From Spirometra erinaceieuropaei (Eukaryota; Platyhelminthes; Cestoda; Diphyllobothriidea; Diphyllobothriidae): a DNA stretch of 64,000 nucleotides. The first letter of the stretch is position 1. Each line of letters starts with the position of its first letter. The translations under genes were made by a program, and so were the position numbers. Positions 180 to 48,107 of this stretch are shown one piece after another. The DNA lies in contig CACRXP010000554.1 of assembly GCA_902702965.1 (NCBI GenBank), forward strand, positions 298,365 to 362,364. The letters run 5' to 3'. The notes beneath the pieces were generated by a model that did no database searches, was not told where the DNA came from, and worked only from the letters and a program-made list of their open reading frames with translations.

Positions 180-506
180 GAATGTTATTACCGACAAAGG
201 CAAGGGAGATTGGAGTGACCATTTCTGACTTATTAGCCGCCGTCAGCCAGTCATACCCAACTCCGAAGTGTGGAACACCCGAGACTCGAATAAGCCATCT
301 GGTAGTTAGAAGTCCACGCCTCTAACCACTGGGCCACGAGCCCGTCGCCCTGTCGGTTTCGATCGGGAATATACAATGATAGGGGAGCGCTCACCGATCT
401 TTCCTACGGAACTCACTTGTTCAGTTGTGCCTTACGGGCTCTCTCTCCCGAGCCCAACCAGCAACCGCACAGCGGCACATGATATAGGCAGACTGTTATT
501 TAAAAA
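180..506 (-). mobile_element. tRNA-derived SINE, two units head to tail
   Basis: Read on the minus strand, the unit has a tRNA-like head (ggctcgtggcccagtggtta, an A-box-like sequence, then a B-box-like gattcgag stretch). A body follows, containing agaaatggtcactcc and tgtcggtaataacatt. At about 350 the head joins directly to the tail of a second unit (cgatcgaaaccgacagg on the minus strand). The second unit is broken at about 506 by foldback-element sequence. The same junction recurs at 15150 and 16700, so tandem SINE arrays are common here. RNA polymerase III would drive an intact copy; this one is mutated. Confidence 0.75.
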
Positions 507-740
507 TGTTTGAATCTATAAGGGCGTCGAAAATAGATTTGAAAAATAATATTACTGAAGTACTCACTTTAATGAGTATGATTACGTGCAGATGACCGCA
601 AAGACACGTATTCGGAGGCCAGAATCATGGAGTGAGTGAGATGTCTTGGGATTATGCCGTATGATAATAAATCTAGAGTCCCGCCTGTGCATTATTTTCT
701 AATCTATGGCACATTTCAGATTTTCAGTTGATATTTAGTT
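507..740 (+). mobile_element. Foldback element, solitary right arm
   Basis: This is the right-hand arm of the foldback family seen in full at 9328-10319. It has the internal marker tataagggcgtcgaaaat, a diverged cgtgcagatgaccg block and a terminal cacatttcagattttcag stretch. The left arm and centre are absent. It is the most diverged copy seen and abuts a second partial copy. Confidence 0.6.
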
Positions 741-1258
741 AGGTACATTAGAGGTGCCGAAATCACAAGCTGTATATTTTCCGTGTACGCGAACTCATAA
801 ACTTCCAAAGGTTATTAAGAGGAGACCATGTAGGGCTCATACTGAAAAATTTACGAGCAACATCTGTAAAAACAGAGACACGATGTTGTATAAATGGGTT
901 TGTAACGGTCATAAAAAATCTCATAACTGGAATTTTTTGAAAGCGAATTATGCACTTCCCTCAAGCGTAAAATTTGATAAAGACGTACTTCTTCACCAAA
1001 TGAAGAAATAACGAAAATTTGTATGTCTGTTTCCTGTATAATACATTCGAGTTTATAAGGGCATCGAAAATCAACGAGAAAAATTCATGCTACTAAAGTA
1101 GTCATTTTTATGAAGTGTAGTTTTTGCAGGCGACCGGAGAGAAGTTCGTTCAAAAGCATGGTGCCTAATATTACAGCCCTGTTTAAGTAATCTTCTCGAG
1201 TCCAAAACACATTTCAAAATTTGGTTAACATTTTAAGACTTAGCACATTTACCGTACC
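741..1258 (+). mobile_element. Foldback element, left-truncated copy
   Basis: The copy starts in the central segment (acaagctgtatattttccgt at about 766, as at 9757 and 21600) and runs through a complete right arm. That arm has the markers aagggcatcgaaaatcaa, tgcaggcgaccgg and cacatttcaaaatttggtt and ends near atttaccgtacc. A short open frame of 85 codons lies in it, but the frame is not kept in other copies, so I treat the element as noncoding. Confidence 0.7.
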
Positions 1259-1771: not shown

Positions 1772-2705
1772 CAGTAGATGTTCAGGCTCCTGAAATTTTA
1801 AATGATTGCGAAATATTACTTAGGTATAACATGATCCCAAGATGATCCAGTCGTTCCAGGATTCCGGCTTTTGAGTGCACTTCTTTCCGGCCGCCGGAAA
1901 ATACGGCGCTCAGTTAAGAGTGGCTATTTAAGTAGCATTAATTTTCCACTGATTTCCGATGCCTTTATCAATTTAAATATATTTCATAGAAAGCATGGTA
2001 TGAATATTCTTTTTTATACTCATTTGGTGGAACATTGCGTCTCGTTGGCATGTTATACCCGAAGAAAGGATATCCCAGGTTTTAAAACTTTTTGATCTCC
2101 GAATCATTTTGAATACGACCTGTAGTCGCATTTTCGTTTAGGGTTTAGAGTTTAAAATCTGTGTACTTTCCATGTATAGAAAATCCCATATTTATTTATG
2201 CCATGTAGAAGATAACCTCATTGGCTCATCAAATCTTACAATGAATATGGATTCCGTCGCCCACCTCATAAACACCATTAATAAGCGGACAAATACAGTG
2301 CTCCGTGAGTGGACATCCCAGTCCCGAAAAATTTCATAACTATACACTTTAAAGGCCAAATATGTTTTTTTCTTGTGTAAAATGTAAGGAAGGCTTTATT
2401 TTCTACTAAATGAGTACTTGAAGGCATGTTTTTATGTTTTTAATACAATATACTTTAATTTATGATGACATAAAGTCAGTGGGAAAATGCTTGCTGCTTA
2501 AGTGGCTCTTTTTACAGAGTTGAGTTTTTGAGGACGACCGAAAAAGCTCATTCAAAAGTCGGCATCCTGGCGTGACTGAAATATATCGGGATTATTCTGC
2601 ACACTAATGAGTACTACAATTCCACCTAAGTAATACTTTCTAATCGAAAACACACTACAGAATTTCGGTTAACATTTAATGAGATAGGCCAGCTACCTTA
2701 TCTCA
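1772..2705 (+). mobile_element. Foldback element, diverged full-length copy
   Basis: The left arm starts at cagtagatgttcaggctcctg and holds the family blocks ccggcttttgagtgcacttc, tatttaagtagcattaat and ttccgatgcc. The centre is in the forward orientation (gtgtactttccatgtata). The right arm ends with acactacagaatttcggtt followed by agataggccagctacctta. The arms are inverted copies of each other but well diverged, which points to an old insertion. No conserved reading frame was found. Confidence 0.75.
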
Positions 2706-4440: not shown

Positions 4441-4825
4441 AAGTCGGTGTATGTGTTCTGTTAGTCTCAGCTGTTTTCGGAAACTGGCCTCGCTGTTCCA
4501 AGGAGTGTGCGGACACGATAAAGTTCACAGAACTTCAAGGGCACCACTCCTGGAAACGAAGGCCGCATATGTGGCCCCTCCCTCCTTGCAGTGCTGCCAG
4601 CAAAATCCTTCCACATTATCCTCTCACTTGCCTAACCTCACGCCTGGAACAGGAGGACTTCCTTCGGACATACAGCGCAGATCCCAAAGAAGCCACGCAG
4701 CAATCGGCGTGAAGTTCGCAGCGCTATAGCTGCAGGAGGGGACGTTAGAGATGAGGACCAGTCATCGCACGACCCTTATCGATTTCGAGCGCCGTCGACA
4801 TCCCGAAATGAGACGAACGTTTAAA
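4441..4825. other. Probable downstream remnant of the retrotransposon, unassigned
   Basis: The stretch follows the endonuclease remnant directly and may be decayed linker or reverse-transcriptase DNA. I could not align it to any conserved RT motif. It ends at a foldback element. Confidence 0.25.
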
Positions 4826-5811
4826 GTGACCGGCCTCATGAAACGTTAACCGACATTCTGAAATGCGCTCTCGACTGGGAAGGATTACTTAGGTGGAGTT
4901 GTAAAGTTTATTATCGTGCAGCACAACCCCAAGATACTTCAGACGCGCCAAGATCTTGGCTTTTGAATGCACGTCTTTTTGGCCACCTGTAAACAACGAA
5001 CTCGGCGAAACTGACGGCTTAGACACTATGCATTTTCTCCATCGATTTTGGCTGATCTTACAAGCTCAAACCCATTTCACGGAAATCGTATCAAAAATAT
5101 TCTTTCTCGCACATATTTTGTGGAAAATCACGCCTTCTTCAAATTTTATGCTTAAAGGAGGGGTATATGTTAATTCTAAAAAAGTTTCTAATTGTGGGAT
5201 TTTTAAGATACTGCAATGACCATTCCAGGAGCATTATGTCTATCTGTTTAATAATATTCCTCATTAAGTATATGAAATACTCCACATCCGTTGCAAAATT
5301 TTATGAGCTTTATATGGTATCTTTTTAATGGCGCAAAGAAGTGTGCATTTTTCCTTACACAGAAAGTATACAGCTTAAAGGTTGAAAGTCCCAAACGAAA
5401 ATGCAACGGCTGCTCGAGTTCAAAATTGTTCGGGAACTGACAGACCTTTTTGAAAACAGAAAAGACACCCTTTCTTCGAGCATAAAATAAAAAAACATGA
5501 ATTGCTATCAAATGAGTACGATAAAGAATATTTTTATGGAAGTTTTTTATAAAATACATTTGAATTTACAAAGGCATCGAAAGTCGATAGAGAAAATCGA
5601 TAAGAAAAGAGTAGTAATTTTTACCTAGTGCGATGGTCGAAAAAAGTGCATTCAAAAGACAACACTCTGACGTGTCTGAAATATCAATTGACTTCGTCTT
5701 AAGGTAGTCAGGCTTACAGCTCCACTTAATTAATACTTCCCAATAGAAAACGCATTTCAGGATTTCGGCTAGCACTTTATGAGATCGGTCACTGACTGTA
5801 GGTACTATATT
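4826..5811 (-). mobile_element. Foldback element, full-length copy, reverse orientation
   Basis: The left arm runs from ctcatgaaacgttaaccgac through aatgcgctctcgac, atcttggcttttgaatgcac and agacgcgccaagatc. The right arm carries the inverse blocks, aaggcatcgaaagtcgatag and acgcatttcaggatttcggc. The centre is inverted relative to 9328-10319 (acagaaagtatacagctta), which sets the orientation. The longest open frames, about 100 codons on the minus strand, are not shared by other copies. Confidence 0.8.
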
Positions 5812-7690: not shown

Positions 7691-8560
7691 ACTGTACCGT
7701 TTGTGGTCTCAGGCTAGTAATGATGGTGGCGGTGGCGGTGGTGGTGATAAGGACGACGAACAGTCCAATGCCCCTCTATACTACTCCACTACGCCTCCGG
7801 TTTCCTCTCTGCCTTGTCAGGTGGGGGTTTGTAACGATTCGGGGAAACGCGCGCGCGCGCGCACCCGTGGACACATAAAACTCAAGCAGCCAGAAAAAGA
7901 GGGTGGGCAAGTTCATATGTGTGTGTGTGTGTATATACGCGCCCGTAGCGGAAATTCTGTCCGAATAAGTGAGGGGGACGGATGNNNNNNNNNNNNNNNN
8001 NNNNNNNNNNNNNNNNNNNNNNNNNNNNNNNNNNNNNNNNNNNNNNNNNNNNNNNNNNNNNNNNNNNNNNNNNNNNNNNNNNNNNNNNNNNNNNNNNNNN
8101 NNNNNNNNNNNNNNNNNNNNNNNNNNNNNNNNNNNNNNNNNNNNNNNNNNNNNNNNNNNNNNNNNNNNNNNACCGTGACAGGCAACAGGCTGGAAGCTCG
8201 GTGCAGGCGGCGCGTCTTCCTCTGAGTTGACCGGGTGGAGGGGGTGGGCAACACGTCCACCACCGGATGAGTGTGTTGCAGCCAGTGGGATGGAGCGTTG
8301 AAATTTTGTGGGCGTGGCCGAGCAGCACCAGAAGACGACGACGACGACGACGATGACGCGAGGACAGCTGGGGGAGGAGGGGTGGACAACAGGAACGAGA
8401 GCGGTGCGGCTCTCCCGTGAGCATATACGGGTATGCACACGCGACTTCCGTATAATGAATCGACGACGATGGGGAGAATGCAATGCAGGAGGAGGGGAAT
8501 AATGCAGCGGCGCAACCTCACTGGCTAAAGTGCCTCCATTTGCTGTTGCCGCGGTCTCTA
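7690..8560. repeat. GC-rich low-complexity region around an N gap
   Basis: The stretch stacks several simple repeats: ggtggcggtggc (7724-7745), alternating cg (about 7848-7862), tg (7917-7932), and gacgacgacg with its derivatives (8333-8352). Long frames that cross the N run are artefacts of untranslated Ns. No protein signature is visible. Confidence 0.7.
7985..8171. other. Assembly gap, 187 N
   Basis: Run of N. Simple repeats flank both sides, so the gap is probably a repeat-induced assembly break. Confidence 0.98.
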
Positions 8561-9327
8561 CTAGGTGAAGAATGCTCAAAAAACAACAGCTGGGTTATTA
8601 GCTTCTGTGTATGCCACAGGTGTGTGTATCACCTTTTCAGTAGGCGCTTCGTTACAAATCCTACAGCGCGTTTTCACGTCGGTTGTTATGGTGTAGACCG
8701 CTAAGTAGCATTGGTCACCTGCTATGTGATCCGTTGAATGCATTCAGCTTCGAGTAATAATTGAAGCAAAATTTAAGCCTGACACGCGATGGCGCCTTAT
8801 ACGCGGATATACGTGCGCTGAAAGGAATAACCCTTCAAGACCCACTGAACTTGGGCGGTCGATGCTGTTCTAGTCGCCATCACCCATTAATCATGGCTTT
8901 GTGGCTGTTTTCAGTTACAAATGAGGACAACAAAGTGTACCATTAACCGGTTCTCAGCGCGTCTGCCACACTCCAGTAAACGTCCTGGAAAGGGTATGCT
9001 TTATGGCTGGGCTTACTTACTCTGGGGAACAAGTGTGCTACAAGAAAATAACTGGCGATATTCATTTGTACGCGCCAGAGAAAAAGTAACAAGACTTCGC
9101 GATGGCTGTTGCGTGAGCGTGGTCAAAATGCTTTAACGCAGTCGTCGACAATGCAATACATTTTTGACAATGCCTGCAAAGTAGCATTAAATGCATTTAT
9201 CATTATCATGAAATGGTAAAAATAGTGTCCCCTGTTAATTGGTGACAATGTGGAGGATCAAAGTTTGTGATACCACAAAGGTTTTAGATGTTCATCTCTT
9301 TTGCTCGACACAAATGTTCCCCGAAGT
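8561..9327. other. No recognisable feature
   Basis: Only short unassigned frames are seen. The stretch ends with cgaagt immediately before a foldback element. Confidence 0.35.
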
Positions 9328-10319
9328 ACAGTAGATAGACTAACTCATGAAATGTCAGCCGAAATTCCGAAATGCGTTTTCGTTTCGAAAAGATTAATTA
9401 AGTAGGGTTTTAAAACTAATTATCGAACAACATGATTCCATAATGATTCAGTTACCTCAGGATATCGGCTTTTGAAGGAACTTCCTTTTGTCTGCATGCA
9501 AGAACTATACTCTGTAACAAATGACTACTTAAATAGCATGCATCTTCTCACTGATTTTCGGTGCCCTTAAAGATTCAATTACATTTCATGCAAAACATGC
9601 ATAGAAATATACATTCTTTCGTTCATCCGGTAGGAATTGACGGCTTCTTCCAATTTTATGCATAAAGGAAGGGTATAATTCGGTTTCAAAAACTTTTCCG
9701 ATTCCCGAATAATTTTGAACCTGACCTGCCGTTACACTTGCATACAGGGTTTCCAAACTACAAGTCGTATATTTTCCGCGTATGGAAAACCGCACATTTA
9801 TCTACGGTATTCAGAGGAGACCATATGGGGTTCGTAAAATTTAGCAGTGGATTTGAGTTCTATTGTAAAATTTACATGCCGCATTGGTAAATGCAGAGAC
9901 ATGACGATTTATGAACAGCCATTTGACGGTATTCAAAAATCTCATAATTAAACCTTTTTGTAATCGCATTATGCCCTTCTTTCGCGTATAAAATTGAAAG
10001 AAGAAGTAATTTTCTACTGAATGAGCAAAAGAATGAATATTTTCATGCATGTTTTCCATGAAATGTAATTGAATCTTTAAGGGCACCGAAAATCAGTGAG
10101 AAGATGCATGCTATTTAAGTAGTCATTTGTTACAGAGTATAGTTCTTGCATGCAGACAAAAGGAAGTTCCTTCAAAAGCCGATATCCTGAGGTAACTGAA
10201 TCATTATGGAATCATGTTGTTCGATAATTAGTTTTAAAACCCTACTTAATTAATCTTTTCGAAACGAAAACGCATTTCGGAATTTCGGTCGACATTTCGT
10301 GAGTTAGCCCACATACCGT
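9328..10319 (+). mobile_element. Foldback element, best-preserved reference copy (992 bp)
   Basis: The element starts acagtagatagactaac and ends with the inverse gttagcccacataccgt. Each arm spans roughly 370 bp and the two are inverted copies. Shared blocks include cgttttcgtttcgaaaagat, attaattaagtagggtttta, ggatatcggcttttgaagg, gcatgcatc and ataattcggttt. About 250 bp of centre remains unpaired, with markers caaactacaagtcgtatatt and gagaccatatgggg. The tetranucleotide aagt abuts both ends (9324-9327 and 10320-10323) and could be a target-site duplication. No transposase frame is present, so the element is non-autonomous. A single strand could fold into a very long hairpin. Confidence 0.9.
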
Positions 10320-10744
10320 AAGTGACCTCGGCCATAAACCATGACACTGCCAACGTCCTTGACCGGTGAGCTAAATCAGACGCAGGTGTACGGCTTGTGA
10401 CTGTCTCCGCATCCGGTAGTTCCTCCCCGTAGGCGGCCCAGGCCAACTTGGTTCGTATTCCCACTGAAACAAATGTCGTGATTTATAGTGGACTTCGACA
10501 GTCGTCTGGGATGACTAGAAAATCATATGTACGACAACACTGCTTATTTGCTCGTGGTTGGAGGAGCCAGAAAATATTCCTAAACGAAGAATGGATAATT
10601 ACGCAGTCGGCAAGGCGATCATGGTCTGCGGACGACAAATGTGCTGTTGAACATTTATCCCTAGCCACCACCCCTGTCCCCATCCCGTGCTTCTCCGCAC
10701 TCTTACCGTGTAACATCGTTCACTCGGGAAGTCTGGAATGTTAG
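10320..10744. other. No recognisable feature
   Basis: Overlapping frames of 72-98 codons on both strands show no family motif. This could be retroelement debris. Confidence 0.3.
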
Positions 10745-11639: not shown

Positions 11640-11954
11640 GTTCGCTTTTAGATAATCGACTGGTCACACAGTGGGACAACTCTGAGCTCTTGAGAACTGT
11701 TGTGCTATGAAGTAACAATTGCGGCTCTGAGTGAGACCGATTTCTCAAATCAGGCATTACTCGGGGAGTTGAGTGCGCGAATCACCCTCCTCTGTAGCGG
11801 ACACTTAAAGACAGAACGATGTGAAGCCGGAATCGTTTTCGCCATCGTGAATGGCTTTGTGAGACGACTGACCTGCCTGTCGCAGTGAATCAGTAATAGC
11901 CTCATGATCTTGAGGCTGTCAGTCTGCGGGGACAAATTCATCACCTCTAACAGC
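11640..11954 (+). pseudogene. Decayed EEP endonuclease fragment, part 1
   Basis: One frame reads IAALSETDFSNQALLGEL and then LKTERCEAGIVFAIVNGFVR. After an in-frame stop it reads SLMILRLSVCGDKFIT. This is the SETRF-to-GDKFATI section of the EEP domain found in flatworm non-LTR elements. The stop at about 11886 and missing residues show it is dead. It is cut exactly at 11954, where a foldback element begins, and resumes at 12952. Confidence 0.75.
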
Positions 11955-12951
11955 ACAGTAGGTGGGCTAACTCATGAAATGTCAACCGAAATTCCGAAGT
12001 GCGCTTTCGTTTCGAAAAGATTAATTAAGTAGGCTTGTAAAACTAATCAGCCTAAAGTATAATTCTATAATAATTCAGTTACCTCAGGATGCCGGCTTTT
12101 GAATGAACTTCCGTTCGGCTGCATGCAGAAACTACACTCTGTAAAAGTGACTACTTAAGTAGCACGAATTTTTCTCAGTGATTTCCGAGGCCCCTAAAAG
12201 TCCAATTATATTTCAGGAAAAACATGCATAAAAATATTCATTCTTTTGCTCATTCGGTAGACAATTACGTATTCGTCTAATTTTACACTCGAAGGAAGGA
12301 CATAATTCGGTTTTAAAAAAAGTTTCTAATTGTGGGACATTTAAACACCGTGAAATGGCAGCTCATAAAACGTCATGTCTCTGCATTTACCAATGTGGCT
12401 TGTAAATTTAACAATATGGATCAAATCCACTGCTAAATTTTATGAACCCTATATGGTCCCCCTTTATTACCGTAGAGAGATGTCTGCTCTTCTGTACGAG
12501 GAAAATATACGGCTTGTAGTTTGGAAACCCTGAATCCAAGTGTAACGATAGGTCGGAGTTCAAAATTATTAAGGAATTGGAAAAGTTCTTCAAAACCGAA
12601 TTATACCCTTTCTTCGAGTATAAGATTTGAAGAAGACGTAATTATCTACCGAATGAGCTAAACAATGAATATTTCATGCATGTTTTTCCTGAAATATAAT
12701 TGGATATTCAGGGGCATCTAAAATCAATGAGAAGGATCCATGCTACATAAGTAGTCATTTTTACAGAGTACGCTTTTTTGCGTGTCGCCGGAAGGAAGTT
12801 CATCCAAAAGCCCGCATCCTGGGGTAACTGAAATATTATAGAATTATGTTGCAGGCGGACTATTTTTACAACCCTACTTAATTAATCTTTTCGAAACGAA
12901 AACACATTTCGGAATTTCGGTTGACATTTCATGATTTAGCCTACCTACTGT
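11955..12951 (-). mobile_element. Foldback element inserted in an EEP pseudogene
   Basis: The ends are acagtaggtgggctaac at left and its inverse ending cctactgt at right, giving 997 bp. The arms match those of 9328-10319 closely, for example gtttcgaaaagattaattaa and its inverse at about 12880. The centre is inverted (aaaatatacggcttgtag), setting the minus orientation. The host retroelement frame is split by the insertion. Left flank aacagc and right flank acctag show no duplicated bases. Confidence 0.9.
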
Positions 12952-13015
12952 ACCTAGCACACCCGATGACGCGAAGGATACGACGACCTGCACGCCCCCC
13001 CCCCTTGTGGCCGTG
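12952..13015 (+). pseudogene. Decayed EEP endonuclease fragment, part 2
   Basis: Past the foldback element, ccgatgac, then gcgaagga and acgacgacctgcacgcc, match the nucleotide order that encodes PMT...AKD...YEDLHA in the EEP domain. The frame is shifted. An 11-base C run follows and homology fades beyond about 13015. Together with 11640-11954 this is one copy split by insertion. Confidence 0.55.
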
Positions 13016-15134: not shown

Positions 15135-15375
15135 AGCTTCGTGGGTCATGGGCCCGTTGTCCTGTCGGTTTCGATCGGGAATATACAATGGTAGAGGGGG
15201 CGCTCGCCGATCGGAACTCACTCGTCCCGTTGTGGCTTACGGGCTATCTCTCGATCCCAACAAGCAATCGCACAGCGGCGCGTGATATAGGCAGATTAGC
15301 ATTCCCGACAAGAACAAGGGAGACTGGAATGGCAATTTTTGACTTATTAGTCGTCGTCGGTCATTATGGACTCTA
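15135..15375 (-). mobile_element. tRNA-derived SINE, partial
   Basis: On the minus strand the unit body (agtctcccttgttcttgtcgg, then ctgcctatatca and caacgggacgagtga) leads to the tail cgatcgaaaccgacagg. That tail is joined to the first bases of another head (caacgggccc). It matches the tandem junctions at 350 and 16700. The tRNA-like promoter part of this unit is missing. Confidence 0.7.
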
Positions 15376-15794
15376 AATTCGATTCCACTTGCCGTGCAAA
15401 ATTCGTCGAGATCGTTGGGAGTGGTTTCGATGAAATAATCACTCTGTTCTCTCCAATGGTTACAAATGGACCCTATCCAGCCAAATGAGCAGGAGGGGTG
15501 TCTAGTAAGCGTACCTGGAGTGAGAGGGCACCATTACCAACCCACTTGCCTACAGAAAACGTTTTTCCAGTTTCCTTGGGTACCTCCTCGTATAGAACCC
15601 TTATTCGCATTTTTGAAGGCAGCTGCACAGTGTATAAGGGCATTGCAACAAAAGAATTGGAGCCTGTCAAGACGACTGGCCGGACCATGTCCACTTTTAG
15701 CAACCAACCTCTGACCCCACTGTGCGGCCGTCGCAAGCGACAGCCTTCACCGCGTGCTCCACGGATTAAACGCAGGATGATGACTAGAATGTGA

Positions 15795-16090
15795 AGTAGT
15801 TTGCAGTGAGACAGGCGTGTACAGCATCTGCCGAGCTCTCACCTCCCCAGCCACCATGTCCCGGCGGCATGCCAGTGTTAGGACGACCGAAGGTGGGCAA
15901 GGGCGCTGTGATTGAAAAGTCAAACAGTCCGTCTATGCGTGCCACACACACTACCCGGTACAGGCCATAGCTAGGGCGACTCGGATCTCGAAGGCCATGA
16001 TGAAAAGGAGGCATTGCTGTCTGGTTCTCAGTCATACGATCCGCTACAGACATAACACCAAATTGTCTCTTGTGGCACAGGCGCATTAGG
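15795..16090 (-). repeat. Unnamed 300-bp family B repeat
   Basis: The reverse complement resembles 42885-43215: cgagatccgagtcgccct, gtgtgtgtggcacgca, gtttgactttt, cggtcgtcc and a gcagatgctgtac block appear in the same order. Members elsewhere begin with a gacgtccacagtgtgctcc block and continue through aattagttta and a pyrimidine-rich ccgcgctctc segment. No coding frame is conserved. Confidence 0.5.
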
Positions 16091-16264
16091 AGAGCCGAGA
16101 TACAAACAGCAGTTGAACTGCGGGATAGAATGGGCTACATTCCCTAGTTATCTGTTCGATGCTTAATTGCGTCTTAGGTCAATATTACATTGTCTTGTAT
16201 GTTAGTATCATAGATCATTCTATAAATATTTACCTCGACAGATGGTGGACTGTGTTGTCAGAGT

Positions 16265-16560
16265 TGGAAATAAAGTGGTAGGGGGCGTTTACCGATCGTT
16301 CTTACGGAACTCACTCGTCCCGTTGTGCCTTACGGGCTCTCTCTCTCTCGAGCCCAAACAGCAGCCGCACAGCGGCGAATGATATAGGCAGTATGTTATT
16401 GCGACAACAACAAGGGAGACTGGAATGGCCATTTCTGGCTTATGAGCCGTCATCAGGCAGTAATACCCAATCCCGAAGTGTGGAACACCTGCGGCTCGAA
16501 CTCGCGACCTATTAGTTAGAAGTTCACGCCTCTAACCACTGGGCCACGAGCCCGTTGCCC
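16265..16560 (-). mobile_element. tRNA-derived SINE, near complete
   Basis: On the minus strand the head ggctcgtggcccagtggtta is followed by tctaactaataggtcgcgag and the B-box-like gcgagttcgagcc. The body (cagaaatggccattccagtc, tgttgtcgcaataacat) and tail (gttccgtaagaacgatcgg) follow. The A and B boxes of an RNA polymerase III promoter are both recognisable. It abuts another unit in the opposite orientation at 16561. Confidence 0.85.
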
Positions 16561-16895
16561 TAGCCTTTGTCGGTACTAACATACTGCCTATATCATGCGC
16601 CGCTGTGCGGCTGCTGGTTAGGCTCGAGAAAGAGCCCGTAAGGCACAACGGAACGAGTGAGTTCCGTATGAACGATCGGTGAGCGACCCCCATCATTGTA
16701 TATTCCCGATCGAAACCGACAGGGCAACAGGCTCGTGGCACAGTGGTTAGAGGCGTCTGACTTCTAACTAACAGGTCGCGAGTTCGAGCCCCAGGTTTCT
16801 CACACTGGTATGACTGGCTGACGACGACTAATAAACCAGAAATGGCCATTCCAGTCTCCTTTGTCTCTGTCAGTAATAACATACTGCCTATAAAA
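16561..16895 (+). mobile_element. SINE tail joined to a second SINE, plus strand
   Basis: 16561-16720 is the 3' body and tail of one unit (tttgtcggtactaacatact through cgatcgaaaccgacaggg). 16721-16895 is the head and body of the next (caggctcgtggcacagtggt, cgcgagttcgagcc, agaaatggccattccag, ctgcctata). With 16265-16560 it makes an inverted head-to-tail arrangement. Confidence 0.8.
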
Positions 16896-17044
16896 TAAAG
16901 TTTAGATAAATGTAGCAGGATTCTGGTATCGCCTCTTACTACAACTGAAGGGGAAGTCCACTTCCTGTGAAGCAAAAGTCTTGACGAAGGCCTTCTAACC
17001 TATCAAGGAATAGCAAAAGAACCCGAAAACAAAAATTCGAGGAG

Positions 17045-17200
17045 GGATGCCGACAAGGACAAGCGGAGACTGTTGTTGGTCTGTTGGCCATCGTTAGCCG
17101 GCCATACCGAGGCCCAGGATTCGGACCCGAGTTTATAGTCACTGAGCATTAAGTAGTCCGAAGCCCTACCATTGAGCCACGGTCCGTTGTTCTGTTGGCT
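17045..17200 (-). mobile_element. SINE subfamily 2, minus strand
   Basis: On the minus strand the head (tggctcaatggtagggctt), a B-box-like tccgaatcctgggcct and a short body (ggccggctaacgatggcc, ttgtccttgtcggca) are visible. It differs from the common SINE in head sequence but keeps the ccttgtcggca block. Confidence 0.65.
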
Positions 17201-17430
17201 GAGATTGGCTTATGACCAAGGAACCCCGGTTCGAATCCCAGGTCCTGCAAGCCTCGGGTTGGGTAGGGCCGGCTGATGACGGCCGGTAAGCCAGAAATGG
17301 CCATTACAGCCTCCTTTGCCTCTTGCCTCCTCCGGTATCATTATTCGTCGCAATGCCTCTGCTTGCGAGAACCCCAGGCTGAGCCCCGAGGCGCAAGGGG
17401 AGGAACTGATTGGTGAACGCACTACCAGCA
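17160..17430 (+). mobile_element. SINE subfamily 2, plus strand
   Basis: A B box matching the consensus, ggttcgaatccc, lies at about 17229. An A-box-like ttggctgagattggctta lies 5' of it. The body holds gctgatgacggccggtaag, agaaatggccatta and cctcctttgcctct, then ccccgaggcgcaaggggag. It lies head to head with the minus-strand unit to its left. Confidence 0.75.
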
Positions 17431-21162: not shown

Positions 21163-22150
21163 ACTGCAGTAGATGTGCTAACTCATGAAATGTTAAACGA
21201 AAATGGAGAAATTCATTTTTGGCTCGAAAAGATTACCCAAGTGGGATTGCAATATTAATCAACTTGCAGCATAATCCGATAAAAACCCAGTTACTTCAGG
21301 ATGTCGGCTTTTGAATGAACTTCTTTCCAGCCGCCTGCGAAGCTCACTCCGTAAGAATTGACTACTTAAGTAGTATAAAATCCACTTATCGGTTTTAGAT
21401 GCAATTATGATTTCAAATATATTTCACAGAAAACATGCATAAAAATATGCATCCTGCTATTCATTTAATAGAAAATTCAGTCCTCTTCAACTTTTTTACT
21501 TGAAGGAACGGTATAATTTGGCTTTAAAAACCTTTCTGATTCCCGAATAAGTTTTTAACCCGACCCGCCGTTACATTTGCATTCAGGGTTTCGAAACTAA
21601 AAGCTGTATATTTGTAGTGTACGGAAAATTATACATTTCTATATGATATTAAGGGGAGATCATATGGGGTTCATGAAAGTTAGCAGTGGATTTGAGCCAT
21701 AATGTAGACTGCACAAGCAACATTAGTAAATGCAGGGATACGATGTATTATGAACGGACATTTCACGGTTTTAAAAAATCTCACAATTAGAAACTTTTTT
21801 AAAACCGAATTATACCCTTCCTTCAAGCATAGAATTTCAAGAAGACGTAGTTTTCTACCAAACGAGTAAAAAAATGGATATTTTATGCATGTTTCCTATG
21901 AAATATACTTGAATTTAGAAGGTCATCGAAAACATATTAAAAAGATTCATATTACTCAAGTAGTCAATTTTCACAGAACGCAGTTTTTGCAGGTGGCTGA
22001 AAAGAAGTTCATTCAAAAGCCGGCACCCTGAAGTAACCGAGTTTTCATGGAATTATGCTGCATGGAGATTAATTTTACAACCCTACTTAAATAATCTTTC
22101 CGAGTAGAAAACGCATTTTAAATTGTGGTAGGTGTTGCGGAAGTCTACCT
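21163..22150 (+). mobile_element. Foldback element, full-length copy
   Basis: It starts actgcagtagatgtgctaac and contains both arms (ggatgtcggcttttgaatga and its inverse tcattcaaaagccggcaccc). The forward centre holds ctgtatatttgtagtgtac. The right extremity (aattgtggtaggtgttgc) is diverged, so its exact end is uncertain. No conserved frame. Confidence 0.85.
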
Positions 22151-24629: not shown

Positions 24630-27507
24630 TTATAAAAATGTGAGATTGACAATCCCTACCCTAAGTAGAGTTAGTGGTTAATGTTTATCCTTGAGTTGGA
24701 TGTAAGATAAAATGACCTTCGGCAAAAAATCTGCACAGTCCTCCAACGAGCGGAGTTCTAAAAGCTACCTGCCAATAGCATTCACCGGCGTACTCCCGCT
24801 GTAACCTTGGGCGCTCCCGATGTCAATCGGCAGGGTGTGGACACCTAGTTCAACATGGCTCCACGACCGGCTGGCCTGGATTTAGACTCCAGGCACCCCA
24901 TGGTTTGTCGAAGAAGTCAGAAATTAGCACTTCTGTCTGCCTTGCCTTTGTTTGTAGCGTCTAACATCCAAAGTAACTTCAACCCAACAATTACGAGAGG
25001 CTCCATTTTAATGAATTTGCCCGAGGGAGTTTGTAGCGGCTCACGGCACACCCTTTTCATGCCGACGGTCTTGAAGGAGGCGACCGCCGTCATGCATTCA
25101 CTGGCCCATCGCTGAAACAAATCAGATTGTTGGTCTGTGCGCAGACATAAGCAATGAAACCGCCTTTTTTCCCACACGCACTGGAATGTTCCCCTTATCA
25201 CCTCTCAACAAGGCGCACGAATATGCGGCCACAAACTGCCAGTCTGCATGAATAATATAGAAGGGGTCAATTTGATGAAGTGGATAGCTGATGCAGCGGG
25301 CGAGCGGACGCACGCCGCACGCTCTCCCTCCGCCTCCTCTCGTTCTCCTACTCTCAAGTGCCGGAGGCTCAGACCCCTCCCAGGTGCCGTCTTCTTCTAT
25401 TATCAAACTGTATAACACACTAGTTCGTTACACCTACGCATGCAGGGACACGCTCAGACGAGGCCTGGGGAGGAATGTGAGGACGCGCCGGGCAGGGGGG
25501 GGGCTGTTGGATGGGAGGCGTGGAGGGCCCGAATATATACACACGCACAGTACAGAGGACGGAGATGAGGCCGACAATAGGGCGTGTCCCACCTCCGCTT
25601 TTACTTGCCATCACTCTTGCCATTCACTTCTCCCTGCAAGCACGAGGAGTGCACGTGAGCACTTCAAGAGCAGGGATGGTGGATTCAGAGACCTGCTACC
25701 CTATTGGAAGCAGCAGCAGCAGTAGCAACGACCTCGGATACTGTGGGGGAGGTCTTCCTTCCTGCTGGCCGAAAGGCGCTTCCTCTGCCGCCCACCCCGG
25801 TCAGGCGACGTCGCGCAGTAGGTGACGGTAACAGGACACGGTTGCAGCCTCTCGAGCGTGCCTCAGCTCCAGGTGCGCCTCCTATCTCCCCCACCGCGCT
25901 TCTCTGTGCAGTAGACCGTTCAAATCGGCCCGAACAACGGGCTGGCACCCCGACCTTTCAAGCCCAGAAGTATCTGTTGCAGACCCCGAGGTGAGTCTCG
26001 AAAACGGTTGGCCGCGTGTGACGTGCGCACGTGAGTGGTGGTGGTAAAAGTATGAAACAATGACAATAGCAAGCATGGCTAATTCGTCTATCCCCCCCCC
26101 CTCCCCCCCCCCAGCACACCCGTTGGTCTCTCGCGAAGGCTCTTGTACGTGTGAAAGTATGTACATTGGCGTCTGGGCAAAAACAAAGAGAACAATAGAG
26201 AACTCGCTGCTAGCGCCCTCGACAGCTCTCAGCCTCGGCTTTCAAGCGTGGATGGGCGGAGAGAGAGAGTAGCTGCGAGACTGGATGCAGCAATAGCATG
26301 TGGTCCCGGCCGACATTACGGGCCGCTCTCCTAACCGTTAGCTCCACCGGTAACTTAACTGGTTCTCAAAGCTTTTAACTGCCTCCTGCGGCATATCGTA
26401 TTACGTTATCCTAATGATCCGGAGAAAAACCGGAATAAAAATAAGGAAGAGGCAAACAATGACCATAAGACCGAAATTAGAGGTAGGAAATACGAAGATA
26501 TTTGAGGGCGAGAGGAGGAATTAGCTAGTGGGATAGAAAGGAAGGAGAGAGAGAGATAAGAAGAATGGGTGGAAAATAGTGGGAGGATGGTGTGGGAAGG
26601 TGCAACGTAGAAAACCTGGGGGAGGTGTCTGGTGGAAGAGAAGGATTAAGATCTGAAGGGAGCGGGATGGGCGGAGGACCAAGTGGTCGAGAGCTGCGGA
26701 TACCAATGCCAGTAAACGGGGAGAGAGGCGCACTTAGGAGAGCGCTGTTGCCAATCTGCCGAACTAGCCGTCCAGTTGTGTGATCTGAGCTAAGTACATC
26801 GATCGGCAGAGGAATTACTTTGGTAGGAAAACTGACCTCTAACGTCGCACACACCCAAATGTAGAACACTTATTTGAAGACCTTCATCTCTGAATTAATA
26901 ACAAGTTTCGTAAGATGAAAATTGCACGGTTTCGTTACCTTTCTCTGGTTGAACATCCAGACTGAACTTACAGATGTCGTATATCGAGATCCTCATCACT
27001 AATGAGTGGATGCAGTCCCTGAGCATATAGTACAGGATATACATATATAGGGAATCTGTCACCGTCTCGGAAACCTGAAAGCATGTCAAAATCAACTGCC
27101 AGAAAGTCGATTACGAGGGTTAAACGATGCACCGGCGAGTAGGAATTTAGCAGCTGCGTCATGCAACCAAACGTAATCGGTGAAACACGTGTCTGGACTT
27201 CCAGTTAGTACATGTGAGGGAAGCATGCGCCAAATTTATCTCGACTAAGAATCCCCGCCTGATGGGAAGCGCAAAAATTCCAACACGTTCTGACAGTTTC
27301 CTAGCGCAAAGTGGCCTACTTGCGATATTGTCATGCCGTACCGACTCTTGCCACTGCTTAGGCCAGGCCGGCCTAATTGCAGTAATTCCGTGTAATCTAG
27401 TGTTAATGTCAGTTTCTACTTTAAAATAGCAAGTAGATGTTATTTGGCTCATATAGCCAAACGCGAGGATGGCAGAAGTAGATCCAGAAGACATAACATC
27501 CAACATG
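24630..27507. other. No recognisable gene; low-complexity islands
   Basis: GC-rich pyrimidine and purine tracts lie at 25290-25560. A cag run (25709-25726) and C-runs (26089-26114) are also present. A minus-strand frame at 24917-25201 and one at 27159-27506 look moderately protein-like but match nothing I know. A tRNA-like ggttaggagagcgg sequence (minus strand, about 26320) lacks a B box. Confidence 0.35.
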
Positions 27508-27885
27508 CAATAGGTGGGCTAACTGATGAAATGTCAACCGAACTTCCGAAATACTTTTTCGTTTCGAAAAGATTGATTAGGTAAGGTTCTAAAATTAATC
27601 ACCACGCAGCATAATTCTATAATAATTCAGTTACCTGAGGCTGCCGGCTTTCGAAGGAACTTTTTTCCGACTGCATGCAAAAACAATATTCTGAAAAAAT
27701 GACAACTTAAGTAGCATGCATTTTTCTCTTTGGTTTTCGATGCCCTTAAAAACTCAATTATATTTCGTAGAAAACATACATAAAAATATTCATTCTTTTG
27801 CTCATTCGGTGGAAAACTACGTCTCCTTCCATTTTTATGCTTAAAGAACGGTGATATTCAGGTTTTCAAAAGGTTTTGGAGACAA
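27508..27885 (+). mobile_element. Foldback element, left arm only
   Basis: It starts caataggtgggctaactgat and keeps gtttcgaaaagattgattag, gctgccggctttcgaagg and gtagcatgcattttt. It stops near ggttttcaaaagg, so the centre and right arm are missing. Confidence 0.8.
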
Positions 27886-30313: not shown

Positions 30314-33300
30314 CTAAAGCGGAAGAAAAAGTGAGATAGGGAGTGGGGCAAAACAAGCGGGTATCTCCGCCTCCTACCTAGCAAGGCATCCCCGCTCTCA
30401 CAGGGAAATATCAGATTTCAAAATGCCAGCGGACACAAAAACTCCCGAGATCTCAAGGCTGCAGGACTTTCTAGCTGCATATACTAATGGAAGCACACAG
30501 TCACTTTTAGGACAACTTAAAAATTATTCCTAGGAACCCCTTCAGGAGCATGTAAGGCTTTACCTTGAAACGTAAACCCCATCAGAATCTTCGGATTTCC
30601 TCAAAAAATTGCGAGGCAACTTCTCAATACGTTAAACAAAGTTTTTCCTATATGACAGGACAGTTTATTTGTGCAATCTTGCGCACTGGGGAGGGGTTCT
30701 GAGCTATTAAGGGATTTTCATGAATTTCCGAATCTTTGACGGGTTTTGGCGCAAACCGTAACAACAGAGTGCGTACGACAAGGAGTAGCATGTGGTTTCG
30801 AAACTTTTGCTCTTATCCCTTTTTCATTCTGTTTAAAGCTCACTTAAGAGGAATGGGTCTGAATATTTGCTGTGACTGAATAAATCACCACTACGAACCC
30901 GAAGGGGTGTCTCACGCAAACACTGACCTTTGTGAGACAAAAACTGAATGGGTTCATTTAAAGGAAGCTCAGGCAACATTTCCGTTTTTTAATCATGTCT
31001 TGCAGCAAACTTTCCGATAAATAAATCTGTCTGCAGTAAGAGGCCAAAATTTCGAAATGAGTATTTGATTAGAACGGATAACTTAAGTGAGGTTATAATA
31101 TTGAGTATCATGTGACATAATTTCACGATATTTCACACACGACAGGATATCGGCTTTTGAGTACGCCTATTTTTGGCCGCCTGCAAAAACCGCACTCGGT
31201 AAAAGATGACTACTTAAGCAATATGATTTGTATAAGTGATTTTCTACGTCCTTAGAAATTAAAATGTATTTTATGGAAAGCATGCACAAGAACATTGTTT
31301 CTTGTACCCATTTGGTAGCAAACCATGTCTTCTTGAAATTTTGCACTCGAAAGGAAGGTATCATCTGGTTTGAAAAAAGTTGCCAATTATGAGATCTTTT
31401 AAAACTGTGCACATACCCCACATCCACTGTAAAATTTTATGAGCTTTATATGGTATCTCCTTAATGATATAGAAGAATATACGATTTTCCTTACACGGAG
31501 AGTTTACAGGTTGTAAACTGAAAACCCTAAATGTAAATGGAACAGCAAATCAGGCTCAAAATTACTCGGGAATTTAAAAACTCCTTAAAGCCTAAATAAA
31601 CCCTTCTTTTAAGTATAAAATCTGACGAAGACGTGATTTGCTACCAAATGACACAAGAAATAGTATTTTTGTAAATGCCTTCTATAAAGTATGTTTGAAC
31701 TCATGTGCGCATTGAAAATAAGTAGGAAAAATGTATATTAGTCAAGCAGTCATTTTTTCTGACTGCGGACTTTGCAGGCGGCCGAAAGGAAGTGCACTCA
31801 AAATCCAACATCCTGGCGTGTCATGGAGTTATGGCGCACAATAATCAATATTACAACCCTACTTAAGTAATCCTTCCAATTCGAATACGCACTCTAGAAT
31901 TTCGGCTAATGCTTGATGAAGCATCTTGACGACAAGATGAGTGAATGTGTTTGAGTGGGGCAAACATTCCAAGTCATTTCTTCCCAAATAAGCCAGTCCA
32001 GATCTAGCAGACTGCAAGCTCATAATTCCTTTCTTGCTGACAACTTTTCGGGTAAAAATCAGAGCACTACTGCAAGACTACTCACACCTATGTGGAAAAC
32101 AAATACAGCAGAGGTGGACCGACAAAGGCGGGGGGAGGTAGAGATGACAGCAGTGGTTTAGAGGTTGTCAAGACGCAGGGGAAAACCAATGGGCACACAC
32201 TCATGCACAGCGCACTTGGCTTACAGAGAGGTGCTTACTTGTATATGATAGAGCAATGAGGAAGTGCCTCAGCACAGAGGGAACAACCAATGATAGGTCG
32301 GACCGTTCGAGGTCGTTACTCACAGGGGTTTCGCTGTTTGAGATCGAAACGCAAGGCAGCAACGGGACGCGGGCATCGGTGTGGGTGGTTCACGTGTCCC
32401 CTGCAACGGTCCATGCGGGAGTTGCATCGGACCAACAGTAGGACCAGACCAGGGTACGGTACGCGTTAACCGGTCTAACGGATGCCGCACATAGGGAGGG
32501 GGGGTGGTGGCACGCCTAGGTGTAGTCTCATACCACGCCAGGCATTTGCGTCCAGTCCCCGCACCAGATAGCTGACCGGATCGGGCAGTGGACTGGTGCC
32601 TAGGAAGAGAGAGTGAGGTCGACTCCGGGGGCTCCGTCTACCCGGCACTCAGCGCATAATCCTCACTGAAAACAATCTGACGCGTCTTTAAACTATCACA
32701 GTTCTCTAAAAGCCGTGGCTTGAGAGGCTTCCAACTGAAGGGGCTAAGTCGGTCCGCCTCTCGGGAGGGAGGGTCAGGCAGGAGTGGTTCTTCCTAACAT
32801 GGTCACCGGACCCAGGGGGATGAAGGAGTAGGGTAGAAGCGACGTAGCATAAGCTAATTCTAGCGCAAGTCATCGTTCCTGCGCTGGCCGTGCTGTTTGA
32901 GACGGTGGACGTCATCGTTCGCGAGGGTCGAACTGTCAGAGTCAACAGGCCATAGTGTCGTCATCGAGTCCTGCAGCATTTGTGGGCCAGTCAACGCAAT
33001 AAATAAGCTACGAAACAGGCCACCTAACAAACGAGGCCAGGCCGATAGGCCCAAAGCAACATTCAACTGAGGTTCTACTAGTTTCTCTCCCAAAAATGAC
33101 TGTTGGGTAGGCATAATAATAAGAGATTTGTTGAGCATTGTGAGGACCCTGTTAATTAAGCCTCCTTCTGTGGTGGTGGTGGTGGTGGTGGTAGTAGTAG
33201 TAGTAGAGGTGGTGCTAGACTAAAATTTCGAGTGCACTTTCCAACTATACGTACTGGCTATCACCATGCGCACCGATGTATGCTCGGCTACAGGTCTTGG

Positions 33301-36300
33301 TCGTGAGTGCGGCCGACCGAAGACGCCGGAAAAAAAACTTGAAGTCGGTGCCGACTCTGGCTCCCACAGTCTACCCCCGACACTTGGAGACTGCGACCTG
33401 GCTGGTGGTCGCCCGTTCACGACCTCTAACACACCGGAGGACGGAGCTGGTTTAACCTGAGATTCCAAACTGATTGGCATGCAGGCACTCCAATGGAACA
33501 TGGCTACGCTGGTTTCGCAAGTGGGTAAAAAAGAACCGCGCAGCCAAAAAACAGCAGTAGCACTTACAGCCATGAGGGTCCGCAGGGAGTCCATAGAGCG
33601 CATATCCGCAGGCGACAGACTGCCCGGCATCACGGGCGTGACGGTGGATACCGACGCAGTGGTCGGGGTGGTGAAGGCATCTCTATCCTCAACGGTCCTG
33701 TGCAGTAGGAGGACAGAAGTTGGCTGATCGAAGCTGCCTTGCGAGGAGGACTGCGACGCAGCAGGTCGAGACGACTCGGCTGGCTGAGGACGTTGGTTTT
33801 CCAACATGGCGGTCAGACGCCTGCAGAGGCTGGGCAGCAGGGGGAAGACAAGGACACGCAGGCAGCTGGGACCGAACTCTGACAGGGCAATCAGGATGCC
33901 GTAGAGGGTGTTGAGGGAACTGGAGGCCGCACCCAGGCTCGCACCCCCTTTGCCGGCGTTGTCGGCCGGCTTGGGAGGTTGCTGGGTGTGACTCTTGCTA
34001 CCGGCAACTTGGTCAGTCTTTTCGGAGACCGCTAAACCGGACTCCTGATCCTGGGGTAACTCAGTGGTTCCGCAAGCGGAGGAAACAGCTTCTGGAGATG
34101 GGGGACCGCCAGCGGATGTTTCATTGGTGTTGGCGGAGGAATGAACGAGAACGTGTTCGCCGGTCTTGGAGTCACCAGAGCCGGCTCGGCCATCGATCCA
34201 CGTGCAAAGAGCACGGTAGAGTTCGCGGGTGATGCGGTTATAGAGGCCGTTGGATAGCGTGTTGTAGCTGGACAGAAAACAGAAAGGAGGGAAGTATCAG
34301 TATCAAAGAGCCAAGACCTTGGACGCGATGTTTTAGCTATCTTTCTTAAATTATCTCTGCGGGTGGACCTCTGCACAGATCTGAAAACACAAACACATAT
34401 GCTGGCAGTACCAACGATCACTACATCGTCTTTGGGATTACGGGGATTCCAAGATGACGAGGTCTGCCTATTGGTTTAGCTATCCGGCAAGCCCGCAGGT
34501 GGCAGGTGGTGGGAGGGGTTGCGAAAAAAAGCGGACTCTGGGACCCGAATCGGCACTCGCGGATGATGCGGTGCAAATATCTTCAGGGGTAGCTAAACAT
34601 CGGTCTGGCAAATAAGTTGCCTACAGAGAGGTCGGCTGGCACAGTGATATTATAACATGGCGAATGCTGACCACAAACCAATAAGGTTTGGTCTGCAGTC
34701 CGACACTGTTCTGGAACCGTGAATTGGCGGGTGGGACAGATAATGGCGCAGACAGCAATAATTTCCTACCTATCAAAACAACATACGTTTTCTAACGTCA
34801 CAAGAGGCATTGATACAGTCTTGGAGACTCCCCAGTCGTAACATTGAAAAAAAATTGGCAGAGACCGGAACCACATAAAAGTACGAGGAGCTAGTCAGAT
34901 ATCGACTGGGAGGTGAGTGAATGTGCATGCTGCGTAATCCCACTGTGACGAGCCCCCCGGAATAAATTTTTACGACCAATCGGCTCCCTGAGTCCCAACA
35001 CATTCAGATGTACGCGAAGACTCGACGGCAAATCCCCCACCCCCAGCCTCTAAGAGGCACAGTAGCCGTGCTGTTTCATGAAATGTTAGCCGAAATTCTG
35101 AGAAGCATTTTAGGCTCGGAAGGATAAATTAAGGTTGTAATATTAGTTACTATGCAGAATAGGCTCAAGATATTTCGGTCACGCCAGGATGCTACTTTTT
35201 GAACGGGCTTCTTTCCGATCGTCTGCATAAACCACACTACAAAAACGACAAATAAGTAGTATAAATTTTTACCATTGATTTCCGATGCCCTTATAAATCC
35301 AGACATGTTTTGTGCATGAATGAAAAGTACAATTCCATTAAAAAGGTTTTTTCAATTCCCCAATAATTTTAAACTCGACCCGTCGTCACACATGCATTTA
35401 GGGTTTCTAAACTACAAGCTGTATGGTTCCTGTGTAAGGAAAGTCGTGCAATTCTACATTTTACTATGAAGATGCCATATGGGGTTCATGAAATTTTATA
35501 ATTTATTTAAAACATATTGTATACCTTACAATTAACATAAAAAATGTAGAGTTATGATGTTTTCTGAATAGACATTTCACGATCTTAAAAAATCTCATAA
35601 CTGGAAACTTTTTTAAAACCGGAAGAGGCAAGGATTAAGTGCATGCACAGGACAAGGAGATGGTAACCTGTGGACCGTGTCTTACGTGAACGGTGGTAAC
35701 AGGAATTATATGAGTGGGGCTTTACAACGGGCAGCGGGGAGCGGGGGGAGTGAAGTTGAAAAAGTCAAAAACCGCGTGAAGTTTTGTCTGCGGTACTAAT
35801 AAACGGAAATCAGTCGTGTAATTCAAGAAAAAATCAGAACACTAGTCAGAAAAATCTAGAAAGCTGAATAAACTGCTTCTGGCGAATTTACGTGGTCCTA
35901 GCCTCAGGCAGTTCGTAGCTAATAGGGAAAAATGGCCGTGAGTGACATGTGGTGCCAATTAGCGCAGGTCGTGGAAAGTAACGACAAGCTTATCAGCGTA
36001 CAGGAAAATAAGTAAATGCAGGGCGTAGAACGAGGAGGAAGACAACAAATGTATGATTATTATCAAAATACAAGTGCTTTTGCTTAACAAATTCACCAGC
36101 GTTTTAACACTCCTGCTTTACTGGCAGACGCATACATTCTGTCCAGCAGGATTTCGAGTATTTTTTGCTACCTGACTGCTCTCCGTGCTGACTTTTTTTC
36201 AAGTTAAGTCTTTAAAGCTGTGTTCAACTTACTAGTAATGCATTGACTCTGTTTTGTTCGATATGAAGCAGAGTGAGGTATGTGCAGATAATAACGATTA

Positions 36301-38035
36301 AGAAGGGCAGGTATAGATCTGTTTATATGTGCACGTGGTAAATACTTTTATGAAAGCGAGGAAAAGTTGTGACGCGGTACAGGCCAACTCGAAAGCCAAT
36401 CAATCGCATTGTGATTTACCGACCGCAGCAGATGAAATTATGCAAGGAATCGACTCCAATAATGTGGTAAAGTATTTCCAAAGTAGGAGACTACAGAACA
36501 TTATCCTACAGTGCAAATGCGGATGGCCTGTGCGGCAATAAACCCCTAAGGGACACACGGACGGTTTCTACTTCAGATGCAACCTTTGTGGCTCGAGAAC
36601 AGCATAGATTCAGTGTTTGAAAGGCACTCATAAAGCAAACCGGACAATTAGGCGGCCCGAGTGTGGAAGTGCAAATGGCTGAAATGATGGTAAGCCGCCA
36701 CAAGTACAACGTTGGCCGGCTGATAAGGCAGTTCTGGCTGCTTGGAGTGTATGATACTAAGAAAGCTACGTGAGGGAGATCCCGTGTCCGGCTGATTGGT
36801 GTGGACGCACGTGGACGAAGAGCAGTACCGTCTGTGGTTTGGACTGTACTACACAGGCCTGACGAATGCATGGGAAACCCGTCTGTCCCATACTGCGAAA
36901 GTATATCCCGTGCAGTTAGAGCCGACGAAGGGTGTGACTGGAAACCGACCGAACGCACTTTAACTTCGCTCTCGATAAAAAAAACTAGGTGTGGGAAGTG
37001 CAAATCAATGAGCAGCACCGATCCTTCGGGGCGGTACAGGTCAGCAAATGCCACTCAAAAACTCTACCGAACAACACCTACTTTGAAAAATGTAGTAGAT
37101 GGTTTTCCATAGTTACAGAGTGTAGTTTTCGCAGACGGCCGGAAAGAAGCTCCATAGAAGGCCATGCAAATGTGATTGAAATATCTGGGGACCACGCTGC
37201 ACAGTAACTATTATTACAATCCTATTCAGGTAATCCTTTCGAGTTGAGGACACATTTCAGAATTTCGGCTAGCATTTCATGAGATAGTACATTTATTGTA
37301 TATACAAGTTTTGAAACGCTTCTAAAGACCCTGCATGCCACACATTCTCGTTCTACCTACTTTGATGGGAACTTTTGAGGGCCGTAATAACATGCTGGTT
37401 TCGCATTTCGGATGTATTGTAGGTTGAGTGGCCAACATGGTTGCGGCCTTGGCCGCGCACATGCGGAAAAGTAATAGACTGTAAACATTCCGAACGGAAC
37501 GCTCTGCCGACGACCCACCTCACCTGATCATTAGCAAACTGGCCCTTCTTAGCACCTTAGTCATTTACCAGGGAGAAATCACTAAGCATGTTTGCACGGT
37601 AACATTTGTTGACTGCTATTTTGTTCGTGAGGCGCATCGTCTTACCAAATAACCTCCAAATCCTACGCCCTTAAGTTTATCTTACAAAATATACTACTTT
37701 CAAAATAATGTTCTAATGGTAGTGGACCTGCTGCCCAGGTCATTAATCCCAGTAAACAGAACGCCGGCACCTACCGGTTGCACAGGGTGACCAGTTGTTT
37801 GGCAGCGTAGTCGCGCAGGGCCCAGTGATTGTCTGTGATGGGTTTGGCGCAGAGCTGACGACAGAGAATGCAGGTGATCACAGTGGGCACAATGAGATGG
37901 AGATAGGCCTCCAGAGAAATGTGCTGGTTGTCAATTAGCGCCTTCGTCAAGCGCATGAGGTAGATTAGAATGGCCAGGTTATTGTTACTCACGTTCACAC
38001 GTACCTGAGAAAAAGAGTGCGCATTGCTATCATTC

Positions 38036-38081
<46 letters not shown>

Positions 38082-38092
38082 TAGTAGTAGTA

Positions 38093-38158
<66 letters not shown>

Positions 38159-38159
38159 A

Positions 38160-38227
<68 letters not shown>

Positions 38228-46122: not shown

Positions 46123-46159
<37 letters not shown>

Positions 46160-48073: not shown

Positions 48074-48107
<34 letters not shown>

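Follow-up and report, generated by a model that had tools for sequence, protein, structure and literature searches.

A worn-out family of hairpin-shaped mobile DNA of around 1,000 bases surrounds a TAF6 gene and includes one copy with a probable arm-to-arm conversion

The stretch of DNA that was analysed (64,000 nucleotides, here called the window) carries parts of a TAF6 gene, around which lies a family of worn-out, hairpin-shaped mobile DNA of around 1,000 bases. The clearest TAF6 exon is located on the minus strand near 37.8-38.0 kb and matches the Pfam family TAF6_C (E = 6.8e-23, profile positions 54-130) and, in 6mzc_I, a TFIID subunit 6 chain of 677 residues, the residues 266-342 (E = 1.7e-25). 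A second TAF6-like segment, at 42182-42562, shows similarity to chain 6hqa_D, named a 60-kDa subunit of TFIID and SAGA (E = 9e-5). The assignment of a third segment, at 33223-34296, to TAF6 is only suggestive: it matches TAF6_C at E = 0.15 (profile positions 154-182) and yielded no match among the solved structures. TAF6_C was matched twice in a set of 108 frames from the minus strand. The exon frame at 37774-38325 gave one match; the other was not among the 30 of these 108 frames that were scanned singly and is not 33223-34296, given the E of 0.15 found there. Ahead of the exon frame runs a long simple repeat coding for threonine, probably an intronic microsatellite that is read through. Searches for Rfam families (at gathering score) and for tRNAs returned no matches.

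The repeat family had been described in an earlier note as ten copies of a foldback element of around 1 kb, the two-armed ones being called complete. All 11 intervals concerned were joined into one family by an all-against-all comparison; with copy C (see the list below) as the sole blastn query nine of the 11 were matched, the exceptions being 1772-2705 and 507-740. A family profile, built from eight of the intervals (the six two-armed copies and two fragments, oriented and aligned), recovered all 11 in the window together with one weak fragment, and gave no match in the reversed window that served as a control. The family is indeed multicopy, but the actual count is six two-armed copies and five fragments (plus the weak one):

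502-745, plus strand (nominal, arm side ambiguous): fragment, part of one arm
741-1256, plus strand: fragment, centre and right arm
1772-2700, plus strand: copy A, two arms, left arm shortened
4818-5800, minus strand: copy B, two arms
9327-10320, plus strand: copy C, two arms (at 9327-9697 and 9950-10320), the best preserved of its kind
11954-12952, minus strand: copy D, with two arms that are 85% alike; closest to C among the two-armed copies
21165-22150, plus strand: copy E, two arms, without right tip
27506-27880, plus strand (nominal, arm side ambiguous): fragment, single arm, 78-80% identical to the arms of C and D
31022-31930, minus strand: copy F, two arms, both tips eroded, short centre
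35057-35622, plus strand: fragment, part of left arm and centre, in a probable TAF6 intron
37085-37300, minus strand (nominal, arm side ambiguous): fragment from the outer portion of an arm, probably within a TAF6 intron
45535-45829, plus strand: weak extra arm fragment (profile E = 2.5e-8)

The eleven family intervals take up 7,712 bases, or 12.05% of the window. Pairwise identity among the eight aligned copies ranged from 0.58 to 0.83, and their orientation is mixed, as had been claimed. The supposedly complete copies do have two arms, but E lacks its right tip, F both tips and A part of its left arm. The pieces at 502-745 and 741-1256 adjoin each other, are truncated and represent two separate fragments.

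Other repeats were observed in the window as well. A second inverted repeat (46151-46461 and 47030-47340; arms of 311 nt, 99% complementary and 568 nt apart) is unmatched by the family profile and overlaps a stop-to-stop frame of 277 codons on the minus strand that is without a Pfam match; we presume that its sequence resembles a Penelope-like element. Another dispersed short repeat, about 87-89% alike and present in both orientations, was found at about 441-500, 15244-15295, 16341-16400, 16577-16634 and 47444-47505. Five inverted-repeat pairs of 63-116 nt are clustered within about 2 kb, at 15212-17318.

Alignment of the copies and construction of a consensus, as the earlier note had proposed, yielded a sequence of ~996 bp, in which two inverted arms of ~366 bp enclose an unpaired centre of ~250 bp. 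The described architecture (~370-bp arms, ~250-bp centre) was thereby borne out. The consensus arms are 94% identical to each other over 362 bp; in copy C the arms measure 371 nt, are 91% complementary and lie 252 nt apart. Over the six two-armed copies the mean pairwise identity was 0.658 for the left arm, 0.677 for the centre and 0.676 for the right arm, and the centre is conserved between copies as well as the arms are. No coding capacity was found in the family: the longest open stretch of the consensus in six frames comprises 70 codons, in agreement with the claim that no reading frame is kept, and the longer frames in individual copies, up to 105 codons (inside B), are chance frames. The long inverted arms around a non-coding middle are those of the foldback structural class, although the internal tandem repeats present in the arms of Tetris and Galileo were not detected, a short-word blastn of the consensus arm giving no internal repeat beyond about 15 bp. 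The family likewise has the characteristics of a MITE, being short (~996 bp), multicopy (11 or more copies or fragments within the 64 kb), non-coding and bordered by inverted ends.

The ends of the element read TACAGTAGGTGGGCTAAC. From 21 boundary stretches examined, 13 were taken as true termini and eight truncated or eroded ones were dropped. TA is the outermost dinucleotide at just over half of these recognisable ends (7 of 13), the remainder being CA or TG (4), CG (1, copy B) and TT (1, copy A); both ends of copy C adjoin TA. We read the family as a long-TIR non-autonomous DNA transposon, a foldback-type MITE, which, because the ends are flanked by TA, was most likely moved in trans by a transposase of the Tc1/mariner type. 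As no transposase was found in the window, we infer the superfamily. The Pfam search covered 151 of the 160 window ORFs of at least 80 aa (the nine others overlap N gaps): 20 ORFs were scanned at E 0.01, with TAF6 as the one match, and 131 at E 0.05, which returned eight families, each with a single member; STING_TM scored best (0.00046), and none of the eight is a transposase. Empty sites were not found in the window either (300-bp flanks of ten copies or fragments; 100-bp flanks joined through TA), and the exact pattern of the end motif had 0 matches in viral contigs and 0 in prokaryote genome contigs. The reading as a foldback family is thus supported by structure, ends and copy number. For the hairpin-based mobility that had also been suggested there is no evidence in the window, and the TA-flanked ends fit ordinary cut-and-paste.

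As an alternative to Tc1/mariner, the foldback family could belong to a different superfamily (Mutator, P/Galileo-like or hAT) and have lost its longer target duplication to decay. The end CAGTAGGTGGGC may resemble hAT ends, and the flanks of copy C reach 6 of 8 matching bases when shifts are allowed. For B, C and D (the copies with both termini aligned), however, 10-84% of 2,000 random pairs scored at least as well as the best flanking direct repeat of 7-11 bp; the lowest share, 9.8%, belongs to the 8-bp repeat of C. A target-site duplication of 7-11 bp, the mark of Mutator or the P superfamily, is therefore not distinct from random flanks in any of the three. TA at the ends, both of C and 7 of 13 overall, combined with the lack of a significant longer duplication, fits a TA target and speaks against the duplications of Mutator, P or hAT, although a decayed one may be present and the TA could belong to the element and not to a duplicated target. 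On balance another superfamily is unlikely, and Tc1/mariner stays the more likely assignment.

The arms had been claimed to stay palindromic. If they were kept so, the two arms of a copy should resemble each other more than those of other copies. Left-right identity, followed by the best match to an arm of another two-armed copy, was 0.622 and 0.682 for A, 0.654 and 0.681 for B, 0.911 and 0.830 for C, 0.847 and 0.830 for D, 0.721 and 0.734 for E, and 0.686 and 0.681 for F. As a general statement the claim goes too far: the sign of palindrome maintenance is strong in C, slight in D and marginal in F (an excess of 0.005), and there is none in A, B and E, where the arms remain at the between-copy level. 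In a tree of the 17 arms the pairs C_L+C_R and D_L+D_R are starred, and F_L+F_R is supported at 85/80, unstarred. Between copies, same-side arms are no more alike than opposite-side arms. Comparison of the majority left arm with the majority right arm gives 28 differences over 371 positions (7.5%), which exceeds the left-right difference of 1.9-4.6% (5-95%) expected from simulation of a master with identical arms; the master was therefore near but probably not perfectly palindromic. The copies other than C look like the result of decay from such a near-palindromic master, and conversion is not needed to account for them.

Copy C differs from the others in that its arms share a long identical tract in the assembled sequence:

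9359-9590, plus strand: left half of the 232-bp identical tract, the proposed conversion tract
10057-10288, minus strand: right half of the tract, exact reverse complement of 9359-9590

In an ungapped comparison the arms of C show 33 differences over 371 positions, with 0 inside the 232-base tract and all 33 in the other 139, tips included, so that outside the tract the arms are ~76% alike. Among the other 135 of the 136 arm pairs the longest identical run is at most 34. When the differences in C were permuted, none of 20,000 shuffles gave a run as long (p = 5e-5, the floor of the test); the same test, uncorrected, gave p = 0.027 for E and p above 0.2 for A, B, D and F. The polarity of the changes tells the same. 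Relative to the consensus of the non-C arms, 45 changes in the tract are shared by both arms and 0 are private, against 7 shared and 31 private outside (Fisher p = 2e-16; 2 positions where both C arms changed differently are left out). Relative to D and the arm at 27506 alone, the counts are 29 and 0 inside and 5 and 29 outside (Fisher p = 7e-13, with 4 positions set aside). The identity of C and D varies from 0.72 to 0.96 by 40-column window, meaning that between copies the tract shows no special conservation, and constraint or selection therefore does not explain its identity. Such a pattern is the mark that a recent conversion between arms, or a template switch, leaves behind; the data do not favour gene conversion over hairpin template switching or the reverse. 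With respect to timing, a transposase acts on the tips of a transposon, and the outer 32 columns of C contain four private changes on each arm. As both tips had thus already decayed, the sequence suggests that C was already old when the tract became identical, and that conversion took place after insertion, in place.

Three other accounts of these arms can be weighed against conversion in C. The identity of the arms of C, the highest of the six two-armed copies, could be taken to reflect a young insertion with arm differences due to ordinary mutation, yet the strong clustering of the differences (0 in 232, 33 in 139), the outcome of the permutation test and the unexceptional conservation of the tract between C and D (about 0.72-0.96), which leaves selection as no explanation, make this hardly credible. 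A more serious concern is that the tract is an assembly or gap-filling artefact by which one arm was copied into the other. The draft assembly contains two runs of N, 7985-8171 and 47667-47900. Exact inverted sequence, 47485-47666 and 47901-48082, borders the second run and is probably a scaffolding artefact. A gap flanked by exact inverted sequence implies that such assemblies can create inverted identity, and thus that this might have happened in C. Copy C itself, however, is without N, diverged arm sequence borders its tract at either end, and arms that are only ~76% alike outside the tract would be unlikely to be mis-merged by read mapping; we consider an artefact quite improbable. Finally, a general and continuing homogenisation of the arms, or hairpin-based copying, might keep all copies palindromic, as could be argued from the starred grouping by copy of the arms of C and D (weaker for F) and from the fact that both exceed their best between-copy match. 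Against this, A, B and E have arms no more alike than those of different copies, the arms of F exceed that level marginally, and an unusual identical run is absent from A, B, D and F, that of E being 22 bp (p = 0.027, uncorrected, six tests). Such a general process is very doubtful. The proposal of gene conversion between arms is thus directly supported in C, one of the six two-armed copies, and unneeded for the rest.

Taken jointly, the observations are likely explained by a non-autonomous foldback transposon that derives from a near-palindromic master and of which one copy later underwent conversion. The master, of ~996 bp, would have had nearly identical arms of ~366 bp and a non-coding centre of ~250 bp. 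A transposase encoded at another place, most likely of the Tc1/mariner type, would have mobilised it in trans by cut-and-paste, and the copies would then have decayed neutrally, in the arms as well as in the centre. In copy C the arms may have drifted apart, after which a 232-bp tract of one arm would have been overwritten by the other, via intra-element gene conversion or hairpin template switching. Points that count against this explanation are that no autonomous parent or transposase was seen in the window, that 6 of the 13 ends are not TA, and that conversion appears in one of the six two-armed copies.

Foldbacks of the Tc4/Tc6 type of C. elegans and Tc1/mariner MITEs combine long, almost perfect inverted arms with small target duplications and are mobilised in trans. 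The window family would resemble them by that description, its link to a transposase of this kind being the putative one named above. Galileo, a foldback-like element of the P superfamily in Drosophila, likewise has long inverted arms and a short middle, but it makes 7-bp target duplications, whereas none were seen here (PMC2775673). Galileo arms are reported to be near-identical within copies and divergent between copies, and arm homogenisation therefore has a precedent; unlike in Galileo, the homogenised stretch in the window is a bounded tract in one copy, with none in most copies (PMC2775673). Tetris, a foldback of Drosophila virilis, shares with the window family the non-autonomous nature, the long inverted arms, the non-coding middle and the fact that no autonomous parent was found, but only Tetris has arms reaching 1,735 bp, internal tandem repeats of ~220 bp and target duplications of 8-10 bp (PMC4079207). 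Outside transposons, the identity of inverted arms is also maintained or extended by arm copying in the human Y palindrome P6 (PMC3723533), and copying between inverted arms is known from template switching at yeast quasi-palindromes (PMC3820800). Y palindromes are large structures, however (PMC3723533), and the yeast events stem from frameshift-reversion assays (PMC3820800), whereas the present case is a 232-bp tract in a decayed transposon. In relatives of C. elegans the inverted-repeat structure is reported to be more conserved than the sequence, which implies active maintenance; that result concerns gene pairs and intergenic sequence across species, and ours one copy in one species (PMC1803023). 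Repeat tables of Spirometra/Sparganum list Tc1-type DNA elements, and unclassified repeats make up over a fifth of the genome (PMC8166898, PMC12249497); the window family could sit among either. Among the literature matches listed for tapeworm or flatworm foldbacks and MITEs, no such family is named in the titles and abstract starts, which is no proof of its being unpublished, and the search returned nothing joining foldback with cestode, nor Spirometra with genome, transposable elements and mariner.

The copies in TAF6 introns had been expected to give long double-stranded RNA. If the segment at 33223-34296 is TAF6, the fragments 35057-35622 and 37085-37300 are intronic, and a TAF6 intron is their probable location, with the far exon weakly identified. 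Because both probable intronic copies are fragments with one arm each, the expectation is poorly supported. Aligned with each other in inverted orientation, the two fragments match at about 70% of 184 positions. As for the hairpins C and D, a distance of about 20 kb or more separates them from 33223-34296, on its far side. Copy C folded as RNA has a predicted energy of -597 kcal/mol versus a mean of -210 for 20 shuffles, and in view of this strong fold a transcript of C could, by prediction, be a long hairpin.

The element is of a real but ordinary kind, of which copy C provides one good example of probable arm-to-arm conversion, and the family, at 12% of the window, is possibly abundant in the genome. 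If the tract in C is real, each decayed foldback copy would be a natural recorder of arm-to-arm conversion in which the limits of a tract show up against the diverged tips and inner edges, and counts across the genome could yield rates, tract lengths and the dependence on arm length or spacer. A broader idea, to which we give a low likelihood, is that long after transposition has ended foldback copies in this genome are still being rewritten from one arm to the other, in bounded tracts some hundreds of bases long, by which dead elements are repeatedly restored towards hairpins. Were that the case, fragile sites would be sustained, as would possible sources of double-stranded RNA, and, the host being a tapeworm, this would take place in animals that are said to be without a canonical piRNA pathway (PMC6880638).
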